Source: Verrucomicrobia bacterium Ga0077533
GTDB taxonomy: Bacteria; Verrucomicrobiota; Verrucomicrobiia; Opitutales; Opitutaceae
Reading direction: 5' to 3'
Assembly (NCBI GenBank): GCA_001464505.1
Contig: LNEH01000168.1
Location: 1-50,967 of the forward strand
Length of the DNA: 50,967 nt
Made by a program: the position numbers and the translations under genes. How positions within the stretch are numbered: position 1 is the first letter of the stretch; each line of letters starts with the position of its first letter. Under the pieces are notes generated by a model. The model was given only the letters and a program-made list of their open reading frames with translations, had not been told where the DNA came from and did no database searches. This document shows positions 7,119 to 17,801 of this stretch, one piece after another.

Positions 7119-7895
7119 TCAGCCATAGCGTCCCTCGATGTATTCGGTGGTTTGCAGATTCGCCGGGGTGAGAAACAGTTCCTCCGTGCGGCGGTGCTCG
7201 ATCACTTTGCCCAGCAGCATGAAGATACACTCGTCACTCGTCCGGCGGGCCTGGGCCATGTTGTGGGTGACGATGACGATGGTGTAGCGGCCCTTGAGGG
7301 CAAACATCAGCTCCTCGATGGCGGCGGTGCCCTCGACGTCGAGGGCCGAGCAGGGTTCGTCCATCAAGATGATCTCCGGTTTCAGCGGCAGCAGGCGGGC
7401 GATGCAGAGTTTTTGCTGCTGCTCCAACTGCAGCGTGATCGCCTTGTGATCGAGCCGGTCTTTCAGGTCGTGCCAGAGGTTGACCTCCGTCAGCGCCTTT
7501 TCCACCGCCTCGTCCAGGGCGGGCTTGCGGAGCGCGTCGCCCCCGGCATGCACGCGCAAACCGAAGACGACATTTTCATAGACGGAGACCGGGAGCGGAT
7601 TGGGCCGCTGGAAGACCATGCCGACGGATTTGCGCAATTCGATCAACGAAACATCAGGGTCGTAGATGTTTTTGCCGAGCACCAGGATCTCGCCCTTGGT
7701 GGTGACGTAATTATAGCGTTCGTTGACGCGGTTGAAACAGCGCAAGAGGGTTGTTTTCCCGCAGCCAGACGGACCGATGAGCGAGGTGATGAACCCGTGC
7801 TTGATGTTGAGCGTCACATCGCACAGCGCCTGAAACTTGCCATACCACAAGTTCACGTCGCGGGCGGTGATGCTGTGACCGGTCGCGTCGTTCAT
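7119..7895 (-). CDS. pstB: phosphate ABC transporter ATP-binding protein, second copy, atypical signature motif
   Basis: MNDATGHSITARDVNLWYGK; Walker A GPSGCGKT, Q-loop VFQRPNP, Walker B ILMDEP, H-loop VTHN; signature reads LQLEQQQK rather than LSGGQQQR. Start overlaps the upstream pstB stop. Confidence 0.9.
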   Translation of the reverse strand: MNDATGHSITARDVNLWYGKFQALCDVTLNIKHGFITSLIGPSGCGKTTLLRCFNRVNERYNYVTTKGEILVLGKNIYDPDVSLIELRKSVGMVFQRPNPLPVSVYENVVFGLRVHAGGDALRKPALDEAVEKALTEVNLWHDLKDRLDHKAITLQLEQQQKLCIARLLPLKPEIILMDEPCSALDVEGTAAIEELMFALKGRYTIVIVTHNMAQARRTSDECIFMLLGKVIEHRRTEELFLTPANLQTTEYIEGRYG

Positions 7896-8665
7896 CCGAA
7901 AACACCCTCCACATAGTCGCGGGTGCGCGGGTCCGTGGGCTTGGCACTGAAAATGACGTCGGTGGTGTCGAGCTCGACGATTTCGCCCTTCCACAGGAAC
8001 ATCGTGCGGTCGGCCAGCCGCCGGGCCTGCTGGGTGAGGTTGGTGACGAGAATGATGGTCATATGGTGGCGCAACTCCTTTAACACTTCCTCAATCCGCA
8101 TCGTCGTGACTGGGTCGATGGCGATGCTGAATTCGTCGAGGCAGAGGATCTCGGGCTGGTGGGAGAGGGCCCGGGCGATGGTGAGACGCTGCTGCTGGCC
8201 GCCGGAAAGCTTGGTGCCCAGGCTGTCGAGGCGGTCCTTCACTTCGTCCCAGAGGGCGGCCTGGCGGAGGCATTGTTCGACGATGGCATCGAGATCGCCC
8301 TTCCGGGTGAGCCCGGCACTGCGCGGGGCAAGGGCGACGTTCTCGCGAATGCTCAAAGGCAGGCCGACTGGCAGCGGAGCCACCATCCCGATCTTGCGGC
8401 GCAGCGCGTAGACGTCACGGACCTTCCGGACATCCTCGCCGTCGACCGTGATAGTGCCGGAAACATGCGTGCCGGGCGTGAACTCGATCGTGCGGTTGAT
8501 GCAGCGGAGGAGTGACGTCTTGCCCGATTGGGCGGGGCCGATGACGCCGAGAATCTCGTGGCGCCGGATGTCGAACGAAATGCCGTGGAGGACCTCCTTC
8601 ATCCCGTAGGAGAGCCGCAGCCCGGTGACCTCGATGTGTTTTTCGATGGCGGGCACGTTCACCAT
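7892..8665 (-). CDS. pstB: phosphate ABC transporter ATP-binding protein, first copy, atypical Q-loop and H-loop
   Basis: MVNVPAIEKHIEVTGLRLSYG; Walker A GPAQSGKTS, intact LSGGQQQR, Walker B ILCLDE; Q-loop reads MVAPLP and H-loop reads VTNL. Confidence 0.9.
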   Translation of the reverse strand: MVNVPAIEKHIEVTGLRLSYGMKEVLHGISFDIRRHEILGVIGPAQSGKTSLLRCINRTIEFTPGTHVSGTITVDGEDVRKVRDVYALRRKIGMVAPLPVGLPLSIRENVALAPRSAGLTRKGDLDAIVEQCLRQAALWDEVKDRLDSLGTKLSGGQQQRLTIARALSHQPEILCLDEFSIAIDPVTTMRIEEVLKELRHHMTIILVTNLTQQARRLADRTMFLWKGEIVELDTTDVIFSAKPTDPRTRDYVEGVFG

Positions 8666-9567
8666 TTCTTCCGGGAGCGGAGGTAAACGCGCAGGGAAAT
8701 CGCCGCCGCGTTGACCATGAGCACCAAAGCGAGCAGCACAATGGCGGTGGCGAACGGGATCGATTCCTTCACGCCCGGCACCTGGGTGGAGATGGTGTAG
8801 AGGTGCATCGAGAGGGCCATGCACTGCTCGTTGAGGTAGTAGGGAAAAAGATCGCCACGCTCGACAGCCTTGAAAAAGACGACGCCGGTGAACATCACCG
8901 GCGCGGTTTCCCCGGCCGCCCGGCTCACCTCCAGGATGATGCCGGTGAGGATCCCGCTGATGGAATTGGGGAGCACCACCGCCCAGATCGTCTGCCAGCG
9001 GGTGGCGCCGACGTTCCAGCACGCCTCGCGGAAGCTCCGCGGCACGCTGGCCAGCGCCTCGCGGGTGGCCGCGATGATCACCGGCAGGGTCATGATCGCG
9101 AGCGTCAGCGAGGCGGAGATGATCGAGTAGCCAAAGCGCGCGGCGTAGACGAAGGCTCCCAGGCCGAAAAGCGCATGCACGATGCTCGGCACGCCGGCCA
9201 GGTTGATCACGGCGAGGTTGATCACGCGGTTGAACCAGTTGTCGCGGGCGTATTCGTTGAGATAGACTGCGGCGAGAATCCCGATCGGGGCCGAGAACGC
9301 GAGCGAGAGGAACACGAGGTAAAGCGTGCCAACGAAGGCCGGCCAGATGCCGCCCTCGGTCATGCCCCGCTTCGGCACCTCGAGCAGGAACTCGAGGTTG
9401 AGCGACGGGGCCGCCCGCACGACCAGGTAGCCGACGATGAGCAGGAGCGGCACGATCATGGCCGCAGCCATCGCCCCGAACACCCACTGGGCGAGCGCCT
9501 CCTGCCGGAGTTTGCGGCGGACTGGCGGGGTTTCGCCGAACATGGCGTGGCCGGTGGACGCGTTCAT
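8659..9567 (-). CDS. pstA: phosphate ABC transporter permease PstA
   Basis: MNASTGHAMFGETPPVRRKL...; GVPSIVHALFGLGAFVY and ATREALASVPRSFREACWNVGATRWQTIWAVVLP typical of PstA. Confidence 0.9.
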   Translation of the reverse strand: MNASTGHAMFGETPPVRRKLRQEALAQWVFGAMAAAMIVPLLLIVGYLVVRAAPSLNLEFLLEVPKRGMTEGGIWPAFVGTLYLVFLSLAFSAPIGILAAVYLNEYARDNWFNRVINLAVINLAGVPSIVHALFGLGAFVYAARFGYSIISASLTLAIMTLPVIIAATREALASVPRSFREACWNVGATRWQTIWAVVLPNSISGILTGIILEVSRAAGETAPVMFTGVVFFKAVERGDLFPYYLNEQCMALSMHLYTISTQVPGVKESIPFATAIVLLALVLMVNAAAISLRVYLRSRKKW

Positions 9568-10511
9568 TTGCGCCGGATGCCGCGCACGATCGTGTCGGCG
9601 ATGAGGTTGACCGCGAAGGTGAGGGTGAAGAGGAGCACGCCGATGAGGAACAGCACGCGGTAGTGATCGGAGCCGGCGGGCGCCTCGCCGAGCTCGGAGG
9701 CGATATTGGCCGTCAGGGTGCGCACCGAGTCGAACACGCTGTTGGGAATATGCACGGCGTGGCCGGTTGCCATGAGGACGGCCATGGTCTCCCCGACGCC
9801 GCGGCCGACGCCTAACAACACGGCGGCCAGCAGCCCGTTCTTCGCCGCGGGCAGGAGCACGCGCCAGACGAGCTGCCAGCGGGTGACGCCGAGGGCGATC
9901 GCGGCCTCGCGATACGAATCTGGCACGGCCTTGAGCGCATCCTCGCTGATCGAGACAATGATCGGCACGCACATCAGCGCGAGGATGATGCCACCGTTGA
10001 GCATGTTCACGCCGACGGGCGCCCCGGTGTATTGGACGATCAACCGGCTCATGACCGTCAGGCCGATGAAGCCCCATACGACGCTCGGGACCGCGGCGAG
10101 GAACTCGATCACGATCTTGAGGATTTCGCGCGTCTTATGGCCGCAAAATTCCGAGATATAGATGGCGGCACCCAGTCCGAACGGCACGGCGATCACCATC
10201 GCGAGCACCGTGACGCTGCACGTGCCGGCAATCATCGCGAAGACCCCGTAGCGTTTGTTGACCTCCGAGGTCGGATACCACTCCGGGCTGAAGAGAAACT
10301 GGGTCAGGCTGAAGTTATCGTTGGCCAGGATCGGAAAGGCCTCTTTGAAAACGAACAGAAAGATTCCGAGCACGAAAACGATCGCACTGAAGCCGCAGAG
10401 GTAAACGAGCGCCTCAAGGATTTTTTCACCCACCACCGCCCAGGCAGCACGTTTCGCGGCGCGCACGGCGAAGGCCGGGGGAGCGGGGGTGGCGCTATTC
10501 GGTTCGGTCAT
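9564..10511 (-). CDS. pstC: phosphate ABC transporter permease PstC
   Basis: 315 aa; AAVPSVVWGFIGL, EDALKAVPDSYREAAIALGVTRWQLVWRVLLPAAKNGL typical of PstC. Confidence 0.92.
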   Translation of the reverse strand: MTEPNSATPAPPAFAVRAAKRAAWAVVGEKILEALVYLCGFSAIVFVLGIFLFVFKEAFPILANDNFSLTQFLFSPEWYPTSEVNKRYGVFAMIAGTCSVTVLAMVIAVPFGLGAAIYISEFCGHKTREILKIVIEFLAAVPSVVWGFIGLTVMSRLIVQYTGAPVGVNMLNGGIILALMCVPIIVSISEDALKAVPDSYREAAIALGVTRWQLVWRVLLPAAKNGLLAAVLLGVGRGVGETMAVLMATGHAVHIPNSVFDSVRTLTANIASELGEAPAGSDHYRVLFLIGVLLFTLTFAVNLIADTIVRGIRRK

Positions 10512-10562: not shown

Positions 10563-11495
10563 TCAGGGCTTCGATGTGCCGGCCCGCAGCGGCACGTAGC
10601 CGCTCTTCTCGACGATCTGCTGCCCGGCGTCCGTCAGGATCCAATCGATGTAGTTTTTCAACTCACCCGTCGGCTCGCCGAGCGTGTAGAGGAGCAGCGG
10701 GCGCGCGATGGGATACTGCTTGCTCAGCGTGGTCGCCACGCCGGGTTCGATCGCGGGCTGGCCGGCTTTGGGCGAGACCTTGAGCATCTTGACCTTGCCC
10801 GGCTCATTGTAGCCAAGGCCGCTGTAACCGATCGCGCTCATCGTCAAGCCCACAAGTTCGACCACCTCCTTCGAGCCGTTCATGTCGCGCGAACCCAGCT
10901 TGAAATCCCGCTTGTTGAGGACGTGCTCGCGGAAGAATTCATACGTGCCCGAGCTTGACTGGCGGCTGACGCGGACGATCACATCGCGGTCGGCGGGCAG
11001 CTTGACCCCGAGGTCGGACCATTTGGTAATTTTGCCGCCCTCGGCGAAAATGTCGGCCAGCTGCTCGTTGGTGATTTCAGCGAGCGGGTTGTCCTTGTGC
11101 ACGTAAACGACGAGGGCGTCATGGCCGACGACGAACTCCCTGGGCTCCTTGCCGGTGTTCTTTTTCGCCAGGGCCTTTTCCTCGGCCTTCATGTCGCGGC
11201 TGGTGCTGGCGAGGTCGATCGTGCCCTTGATGAGCGCCGCGATGCCGACGCCCGAGCCGCCGCCGGAAACCTCGACGTCCACATGGGGATGGATTTTTTT
11301 GTATTCCTCGGCCCAGACTTGGGCCACGTTGACCATGGTGTCGGAGCCTTTGTTTTGGATGGTGATCCGGGGGTTCGCGCCCCCGCTCCCTCCACTGGAG
11401 CCGCCGGGCTTGCAGCCGGGCTGCAACGCCAGCGCGATCGCGCAGGCCGCGAGGCCGAGTTGTGGGAAGCAGGAAGAGCGGTGAGCTGGTCGCAT
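10563..11495 (-). CDS. pstS: phosphate ABC transporter substrate-binding protein PstS
   Basis: N-terminal signal/lipobox-like LGLAACAIALALQPGCKPGG; ITIQNKGSDTMVNVAQVWAEEY; VSRQSSSGTYEFFREHVL typical of PstS. Confidence 0.92.
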   Translation of the reverse strand: MRPAHRSSCFPQLGLAACAIALALQPGCKPGGSSGGSGGANPRITIQNKGSDTMVNVAQVWAEEYKKIHPHVDVEVSGGGSGVGIAALIKGTIDLASTSRDMKAEEKALAKKNTGKEPREFVVGHDALVVYVHKDNPLAEITNEQLADIFAEGGKITKWSDLGVKLPADRDVIVRVSRQSSSGTYEFFREHVLNKRDFKLGSRDMNGSKEVVELVGLTMSAIGYSGLGYNEPGKVKMLKVSPKAGQPAIEPGVATTLSKQYPIARPLLLYTLGEPTGELKNYIDWILTDAGQQIVEKSGYVPLRAGTSKP

Positions 11496-11514: not shown

Positions 11515-12606
11515 CTAACTTTTCAGAATGGCCTGGACGAGTTCGTTGATATTCTGGCTGAGCATACGATGGGCTTCCTCATAGGCCGCGTTCCGCAGCT
11601 CGGGGCTGCCTTCCACGGTCGCCGGGTCGGCTATGCTCCAATCCAGGTAGACCCCCTTGCGCGGGCGGCGGGGAAACGCCTTCTTCACCTTGGGCGAGAG
11701 CGCCACAATCAGATGAATATGCTCCAAGTTGGGCACCAGATGAAGCGCCCGCGGCACCAGATAAGACGTGTCGTGTCCTTTCGATTTCAGGAAATCAAGG
11801 GTGGTCGGGGTAACCGGCTGGGGATCGAGCCCGGCTGTAACGAAGACAAACTTGGACTGATTGAGCCCGTTGGCGATGGCCTCGGCGATCTTCGTCCGGC
11901 AGGAATCGTGGTCGTCGATAAACAGCACGCGGAAAACCTCGGCGCCATGGTGTTTCGAAAATTCCCCGGTGCACATGTAGAGCACTTCCGTGCAGATGTT
12001 GCGCGCCTGGTCCGACACGCGCTCGAATCGGCGCACGATCATCGTCAGCGGATCGAGCGATTGGAAGGGGATCTTGTTTTCGTGAAACAGGGTGACGAGT
12101 TGCTTGATCAACACGCTTTTCTGCAGGTCCATCGCGTCTTCCAGCTCGATGGTCCGCCGGGCCAGCTCGGCATCCTGGGCGACAAACGCCCGGACGGCTT
12201 CGCGCAACATCGAGATCGACAGGCGGGACAACTCGATCAGCTCATCCATCGGCACATCCGGCGGCGCGGGGCTGACTTTGAGCAGCTGCCGGGCGATGCT
12301 CTCCGCGTAGTCGCCGACCCGTTCCAGCTCGAGATTGATCCGGATCGTGCTGTAAACGAAGCGCAAGGATCCAGCCACGGGCTGCTGCCGGACCAGGAAC
12401 TCCAGACACAGGCGGTCGATCTCCTTCTCTTTTTCGTCCACATACTGGTCGCGCAAGATGACCGCATAGGCCAACTGCCGGTCGTTTTCGGTGATGGCTT
12501 TGACGCAGTCCTGCAAGGCCAGCTCGGTCAAAGCCCCCATTTCATAGACCTTGTTGATGATCCGCTCGACGTCCCGGTGGAGTGAACTCTCAAGATAGGT
12601 AGCCAC
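11515..12606 (-). CDS. phoU: PhoU domain fused to C-terminal LMW-PTP/arsenate-reductase-like domain
   Basis: GTG start at 12606 gives VATYLESSLHRDVERIINKVYEMG...; two PhoU helical repeats (ERVGDYAESIAR, ERVSDQARNICTEVLYMCTGE); then VLFIDDHDSCRTKIAEAIAN...WSIADPATVEGSPELRNAAYEEAHRML. Track ORF extends to 12753. Confidence 0.85.
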   Translation of the reverse strand: MATYLESSLHRDVERIINKVYEMGALTELALQDCVKAITENDRQLAYAVILRDQYVDEKEKEIDRLCLEFLVRQQPVAGSLRFVYSTIRINLELERVGDYAESIARQLLKVSPAPPDVPMDELIELSRLSISMLREAVRAFVAQDAELARRTIELEDAMDLQKSVLIKQLVTLFHENKIPFQSLDPLTMIVRRFERVSDQARNICTEVLYMCTGEFSKHHGAEVFRVLFIDDHDSCRTKIAEAIANGLNQSKFVFVTAGLDPQPVTPTTLDFLKSKGHDTSYLVPRALHLVPNLEHIHLIVALSPKVKKAFPRRPRKGVYLDWSIADPATVEGSPELRNAAYEEAHRMLSQNINELVQAILKS

Positions 12607-12867: not shown

Positions 12868-13026
12868 GGATTGCTTCGTCGCTCTGCTCCTCGCAATGAC
12901 AGTCTATTTCTCTCGGGACGTTGGCATTACATCAGGTGGTCATCCTGAGCGCAGTGAAGGATCCATGCGTTATGAACATGGCGCCACCTTCCTGGCCGTG
13001 TCATTCCTCGCTCCGCTCAGAATGAC
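12868..13026. repeat. composite intergenic repeat: 'attgcttcgtcgctctgctcctcgcaatgac' unit plus imperfect inverted pair 'gtcatcctgagcgcagtgaagg...' / '...ctcgctccgctcagaatgac'
   Basis: Inverted arms near 12939-12964 and 13001-13026; the same family occurs at 22462-22544. Confidence 0.7.

Positions 13027-13049: not shown

Positions 13050-17801
<4,752 letters not shown>

Follow-up and report, generated by a model that had tools for sequence, protein, structure and literature searches.

How PhoU senses the state of the Pst phosphate transporter, and how it relays that state, is a long-standing question. The locus described here raises it with an added twist, since its PhoU carries what appears to be a dead enzyme and two ATP sites of its transporter seem to have been made unequal. 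What would a dead enzyme be doing on PhoU?

The preliminary description placed a PhoU fused to an LMW-PTP/ArsC-like domain at 11515-12606 of the window (the whole stretch of 50,967 nucleotides that was analysed). These limits are correct, the strand being minus, and the reading frame has no internal stop over its 363 aa. The features of the gene, which we call phoU-pseudoArsC, are:

11515-12606, minus strand: phoU-pseudoArsC gene, GTG start at 12606, stop at 11515, 363 aa
11959-12582, minus strand: PhoU part, aa 9-216, with both E/D-x-x-x-D motifs (E95 to D99 and E195 to D199)
11944-11952, minus strand: flexible linker, aa 219-221, pLDDT below 50
11551-11928, minus strand: ArsC/LMW-PTP-fold domain, aa 227-352, by Pfam LMWPc, arsC_pI258, predicted model and Foldseek
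11893-11916, minus strand: degenerate P-loop, D231-D-H-D-S-C-R-T238, the D231 codon at 11914-11916
11626-11640, minus strand: W323 to D327 of the late DP motif, W323 being present in 75/75 of the first homologue set

The PhoU half scores 165.2 bits against TIGR02135 (NCBIfam phoU_full, cut-off 130.25) over aa 9-216 and contains two stretches matching Pfam PhoU, in agreement with the two repeats previously read from the sequence. In the full-length predicted model, the N-terminal 216 aa adopt the helical-bundle fold of the Pst accessory protein PhoU from Aquifex (1t72) and Pseudomonas (4q25), with a Foldseek TMt of 0.94 to both; the arrangement of the two domains relative to each other is uncertain (pTM 0.62). 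The protein resembles ordinary PhoU in exceeding the phoU_full cut-off and in being sited in a pst operon. It departs from it by the pseudo-ArsC domain added at the C-terminus, by being the first gene of the operon, whereas ordinary PhoU follows pstB, and in that no kinase was seen beside the operon. In E. coli, PhoU binds both PstB and PhoR (PMC4423584).

The C-terminal domain is derived from thioredoxin-type arsenate reductase and not from a tyrosine phosphatase proper. Its Pfam LMWPc match is borderline in score (23.7 bits vs a cut-off of 23.2) but full-length (profile positions 1-139 of 144, aa 227-352), and NCBIfam arsC_pI258 matches with an E value of 3.6e-9, at 37 bits and below the equivalog cut-off of 174.3. 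Structure prediction, proposed earlier as a check, was run with AlphaFold on the domain alone (60 homologues) and returned an LMW-PTP/ArsC fold with pLDDT 92.4 and pTM 0.89. With this model, Foldseek matched ArsC crystal structures (TM 0.84-0.88) better than tyrosine phosphatases, the top PDB entries being 8p5n/8p6m (Deinococcus indicus ArsC2) and 1jl3 (B. subtilis ArsC), TM 0.85/0.88. The original LMW-PTP/ArsC-like label is accurate for the fold, while a tyrosine-phosphatase origin is at odds with the arsC profile and Foldseek. A receiver domain, with a DD pair like that of response regulators, is ruled out by the full-length LMWPc/ArsC profile matches together with Foldseek.

Compared with thioredoxin-type ArsC (pI258; B. 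subtilis 1jl3; D. indicus ArsC2 8p5n), the window protein shares the fold, the DP motif (D327-P328) and the equivalents of C15 and R16 (C236 and R237), so that the second Cys, the Arg and the late DP motif are retained as first read. Where ArsC has C-x-x-N-x-C-R-S, however, it reads F-I-D231-D-H-D234-S-C236-R237-T: Asp231 occupies the position of C10, the nucleophilic Cys of the CX5R signature of active LMW-PTP and ArsC, of which only the Arg is present. Two further P-loop changes, N13 to Asp and S17 to Thr, had not been noted before. The redox pair C82/C89 of thioredoxin-type ArsC is likewise missing, with Ser304 and Phe311 in its place. With the nucleophile and both redox cysteines lost, the suspicion of a dead enzyme is borne out as far as residues can tell, and the domain is predicted to be non-catalytic.

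A scan of genome contigs gave 80 loci, most of them fused, on contigs labelled Verrucomicrobia, Lentisphaerae, Acidobacteria, Polyangiaceae/Myxococcales, Chitinispirillaceae, KSB1, Eisenbacteria, Deltaproteobacteria, Binatota and Planctomycetota. Position 231 in the first homologue set (75 with a readable domain) is D64 S5 G3 E1 T1 C1, a count possibly biased towards Asp since some search patterns included the P-loop itself; W323 and F255 are invariant in this set. Later phylum-wide profile searches used no P-loop-containing patterns, and the two sets joined give D76 S7 G3 E1 T1 C4 over 92 fused domains. All 67 unfused relatives found have Cys at the nucleophile position, and the C82 and C89 equivalents, present in 66/67 and 62/67 of them, are nearly absent from the Cys-less fused copies. 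The fusion itself is rare, with a strong match in about 4 of 388 genomes of the window's own phylum.

As 88 of the 92 fused homologues lack the Cys that every unfused relative keeps, and as going from TGY to GAY takes two base changes, the loss is neither chance nor sequencing error, and strain-specific decay is rejected on the same count. The preliminary description of a PhoU fused to a domain without its nucleophile holds for the window protein and for those 88. Nor does the replacement look like drift: Asp, two base changes away from Cys, is found in 76 of the 88 Cys-less copies, and residues reachable in a single step are rare. The suggested survey of fusion architectures and of Cys-to-Asp conservation came out in favour of Asp (76/92), with Cys kept in 4/92. 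That every fused copy lacks Cys is true for 74/75 of the first set and fails in the wider sample, where L208, L209, L158 and L073 keep it.

These four proteins differ in what else they retain. The CxxNxxRS loop is intact in three outlying ones, and one of them (L158/L214) has all the catalytic ArsC cysteines, with equivalents of C10, R16, C82 and C89. Its PhoU-ArsC gene (G453:C150, 2201-4077) lies directly after a canonical pstB, and its product is likely to be an active arsenate-reductase fusion. L208 and L209 (L212, L213) keep Cys and Arg, have lost the redox pair and belong to operons with asymmetric PstB; the fused proteins of L212 and L213 may be phosphatases. As their C...R loop is intact in an operon of this type, catalysis is lost in most members of the system and not in all. 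In L073, Cys is kept and Arg is replaced by Ile. Scores as arsC fall in series, from 129 bits (L158) through 86 and 84 (L208 and L209) and 51 (L073) to 37 in the window protein. In the sampled genomes, active ArsC, P-loop-intact and Asp-type domains appear to be linked by intermediates, which suggests a route in which a full ArsC was fused to PhoU, the redox cysteines were lost and the nucleophile followed. The free protein nearest to the fused domain, at L157/L215 (G496:C38), is ArsC-like, with an intact CVANSCRS and 108 bits; no match to Pst or PhoU was found within the 7 kb examined around it.

The ArsC half is under purifying selection, its dN/dS (counting method) being 0.05-0.45, mostly 0.1-0.3, above that of the PhoU half and far under 1. 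On a PhoU tree, which leaves the P-loop out, the Cys/non-Cys state changes 3 times and the Arg/non-Arg state 16 times, both numbers being minima by parsimony, on a quickly built tree in which many forks are open. The acidic replacement of Cys is stable, and the oxyanion-clamping Arg is unstable. L158 is possibly a fusion event separate from the others, as the domain tree places it among free ArsC, but a single fused clade is compatible with that tree (AU p 0.74) and in the PhoU tree the fused proteins are all set to one side by a branch with an SH-aLRT of 99.

The remainder of the operon encodes the transporter:

10563-11495, minus strand: pstS, phosphate-binding protein, ptsS_2 subfamily (229 bits), 19 bp after phoU-pseudoArsC
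9564-10511, minus strand: pstC permease
8659-9567, minus strand: pstA permease, 4-bp overlap with pstC
7892-8665, minus strand: pstB1, LSGGQ intact, H-loop His replaced by Asn (VTNL), 270 bits vs PstB cut-off 343
7119-7895, minus strand: pstB2, H-loop His intact, signature LSGGQ replaced by LQLEQ, 318 bits vs PstB cut-off 343

The order phoU-pseudoArsC, pstS, pstC, pstA, pstB1, pstB2, spaced by a 19-bp gap, a 51-bp gap and three short overlaps, is found again, across several phyla, in almost every locus whose length allows it to be seen; pstS is upstream of phoU in L077, L079 and L080, which are distant planctomycete loci, and in L216/L218. Neither PstB1 nor PstB2 combines Walker A, LSGGQ, Walker B and the H-loop His in one chain as canonical PstB does, and their defects are complementary, as expected of a heterodimeric ABC transporter with one degenerate site. 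The asymmetric pair reported earlier beside the fused gene is thereby confirmed: in aligned loci, PstB1 has Asn in the H-loop in 60/60 with LSGGQ intact, and in PstB2 LSGGQ is gone in 56/56, LQLEQ being the usual replacement, with the His intact. The two ATPases probably form a heterodimer. If so paired, the Walker motifs and His of PstB2 would meet the LSGGQ of PstB1 in a full-consensus ATP site, the other site being degenerate. Enterococcus faecalis also has two adjoining pstB genes within one pst-phoU locus, but both its PstB1 and PstB2 possess all canonical motifs (PMC12096839), whereas in all alignable pairs sampled here PstB1 and PstB2 lack one motif each, and not the same one. Near the operon, about 9-14 loci (L004, L005, L012, L033, L040, L041 and others) carry a phosphate permease of the Pit type and a small protein resembling PhoU, DUF47-type as judged by eye.

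Elsewhere in the window's own genome (L144; G000:C124:14475-17732), a canonical PstB stands in one locus with an ordinary PhoU and a PhoR-like kinase, so that the fused-PhoU operon looks additional. A PstB above the family cut-off is found in 24 of 28 genomes tested (the own genome and 23 of 27 other hosts), and most genomes examined hold a pair of PstB matches in the same sub-cut-off range as PstB1 and PstB2.

Our main reading, to which we assign a probability of about 0.5, is that phoU-pseudoArsC encodes the subunit that regulates a second Pst importer, one of non-canonical type, with the pseudo-ArsC as a non-catalytic docking module. Mechanistically, an arsenate-reductase domain joined to PhoU would have lost its redox cysteines first and its P-loop nucleophile later, mostly to Asp. 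The PhoU helical bundle would contact the PstB side of the transporter, like ordinary PhoU, and the pseudo-ArsC, on its short flexible linker, would dock onto a partner. We infer the docking site to be the former active-site groove, the partner to be PstB, most likely as the PstB1-PstB2 heterodimer, and the output to be a gating of transport rather than kinase signalling. With Asp in place of Cys, the chemistry would be gone while the groove still carried a fixed negative charge.

A parallel is found in PRL-3 (PTP4A3), whose Cys104-to-Asp form is phosphatase-dead but retains its binding to the magnesium transporter CNNM, an interaction in which active-site residues take part (PMC12132575). Both cases would unite a Cys-to-Asp change in a PTP P-loop, inactivity and contact with the cytosolic domain of a transporter, docking of the pseudo-ArsC being putative; in contrast, PRL-3 C104D is an engineered mutant, acts on a metal transporter and involves no fusion. 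As it also belongs to a different PTP class, the parallel is one of analogy, and as such it shows that a Cys-to-Asp change is compatible with docking.

More tentatively, and with doubt outweighing confidence, the operon could represent a second class of Pst importer, present in several phyla, in which PstB1 and PstB2 form an obligate heterodimer, one of its ATP sites catalytic and the other degenerate, that is gated by a dead-ArsC PhoU. If true, an ABC importer would here be under the direct control of a bacterial pseudo-enzyme, and intermediates in the descent of that pseudo-enzyme from an active enzyme would still exist. Each defect lies in a known place, which makes the coupling of PhoU and PstB testable site by site.

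The preliminary description had suggested a phosphate or oxyanion sensor; in such a reading the dead P-loop would bind phosphate or arsenate reversibly and report cytoplasmic levels through PhoU. The phosphate-operon setting and the Arg237 of the window protein agree with this, as does the large retention, among Cys-less fused copies, of the Asn (63/88) and Ser (71/88) that shape the P-loop and of the Asp of the DP motif (67/88). However, the oxyanion-clamping Arg is present in only 48/91 fused proteins and missing from 43/91, with its 16 changes on the tree, and the Asp231 carboxylate at the base of the anion pocket, directly followed by a second acidic residue (Glu/Asp) in 56/88 Cys-less copies, makes for a less anion-friendly site. 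The sensor proposal is weakened by these results and we consider it unlikely.

A fossil ArsC that binds nothing and is kept only for stabilising or spacing PhoU would be in keeping with the varying P-loop residues besides Asp231, the repeated loss of the Arg and a dN/dS above that of the PhoU half; the strong preference for Asp, the invariant W323 and F255 of the first set and a dN/dS still well under 1 render it quite improbable. Arsenate is a substrate of phosphate importers, and a domain descended from ArsC might recognise arsenate entering through Pst and shut the importer. L158/L214, with all its ArsC catalytic cysteines beside a canonical PstB, would suit such discrimination, but nearly all members have lost the nucleophile and redox cysteines, and no ars genes are prominent among the recurrent neighbours (clusters identified by eye only), so we give the idea little credence. 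Far-fetched is an enzyme that still works, with Asp231 as nucleophile through an acyl-phosphate and D327 as general acid: both residues are common and Asp is the nucleophile in other phosphatase folds, but the Arg is not conserved and some lineages have Ser, Thr or Gly instead of Asp. The Cys-to-Asp mutant of PRL-3 is, moreover, inactive (PMC12132575).

The components of the proposed importer all come from known families, and their widely scattered combination is apparently undescribed. The open-licence full-text literature, subscription papers being outside the search, yielded no description of a PhoU-ArsC/LMW-PTP fusion, and the open literature searched yielded none of a Cys-less fused PhoU together with a PstB pair of complementary defects.

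Regarding the surroundings of the operon, a neighbouring pyruvate:ferredoxin oxidoreductase (13050-17801) has counterparts of about 86% identity in four congeners. The contig therefore fits the genus and a contaminating contig is rejected, though the fused gene was found in none of the 20 congeners searched. In two congeners, synteny breaks at the end of the oxidoreductase gene, where the pst operon begins in the window, and comparison with the empty site in these two gave no clean insertion boundary. A 30-bp repeat at 12871-12900, TTGCTTCGTCGCTCTGCTCCTCGCAATGAC, has 12 copies in the genome (<=2 mismatches) and none in the reversed control; it is a dispersed REP-like element.
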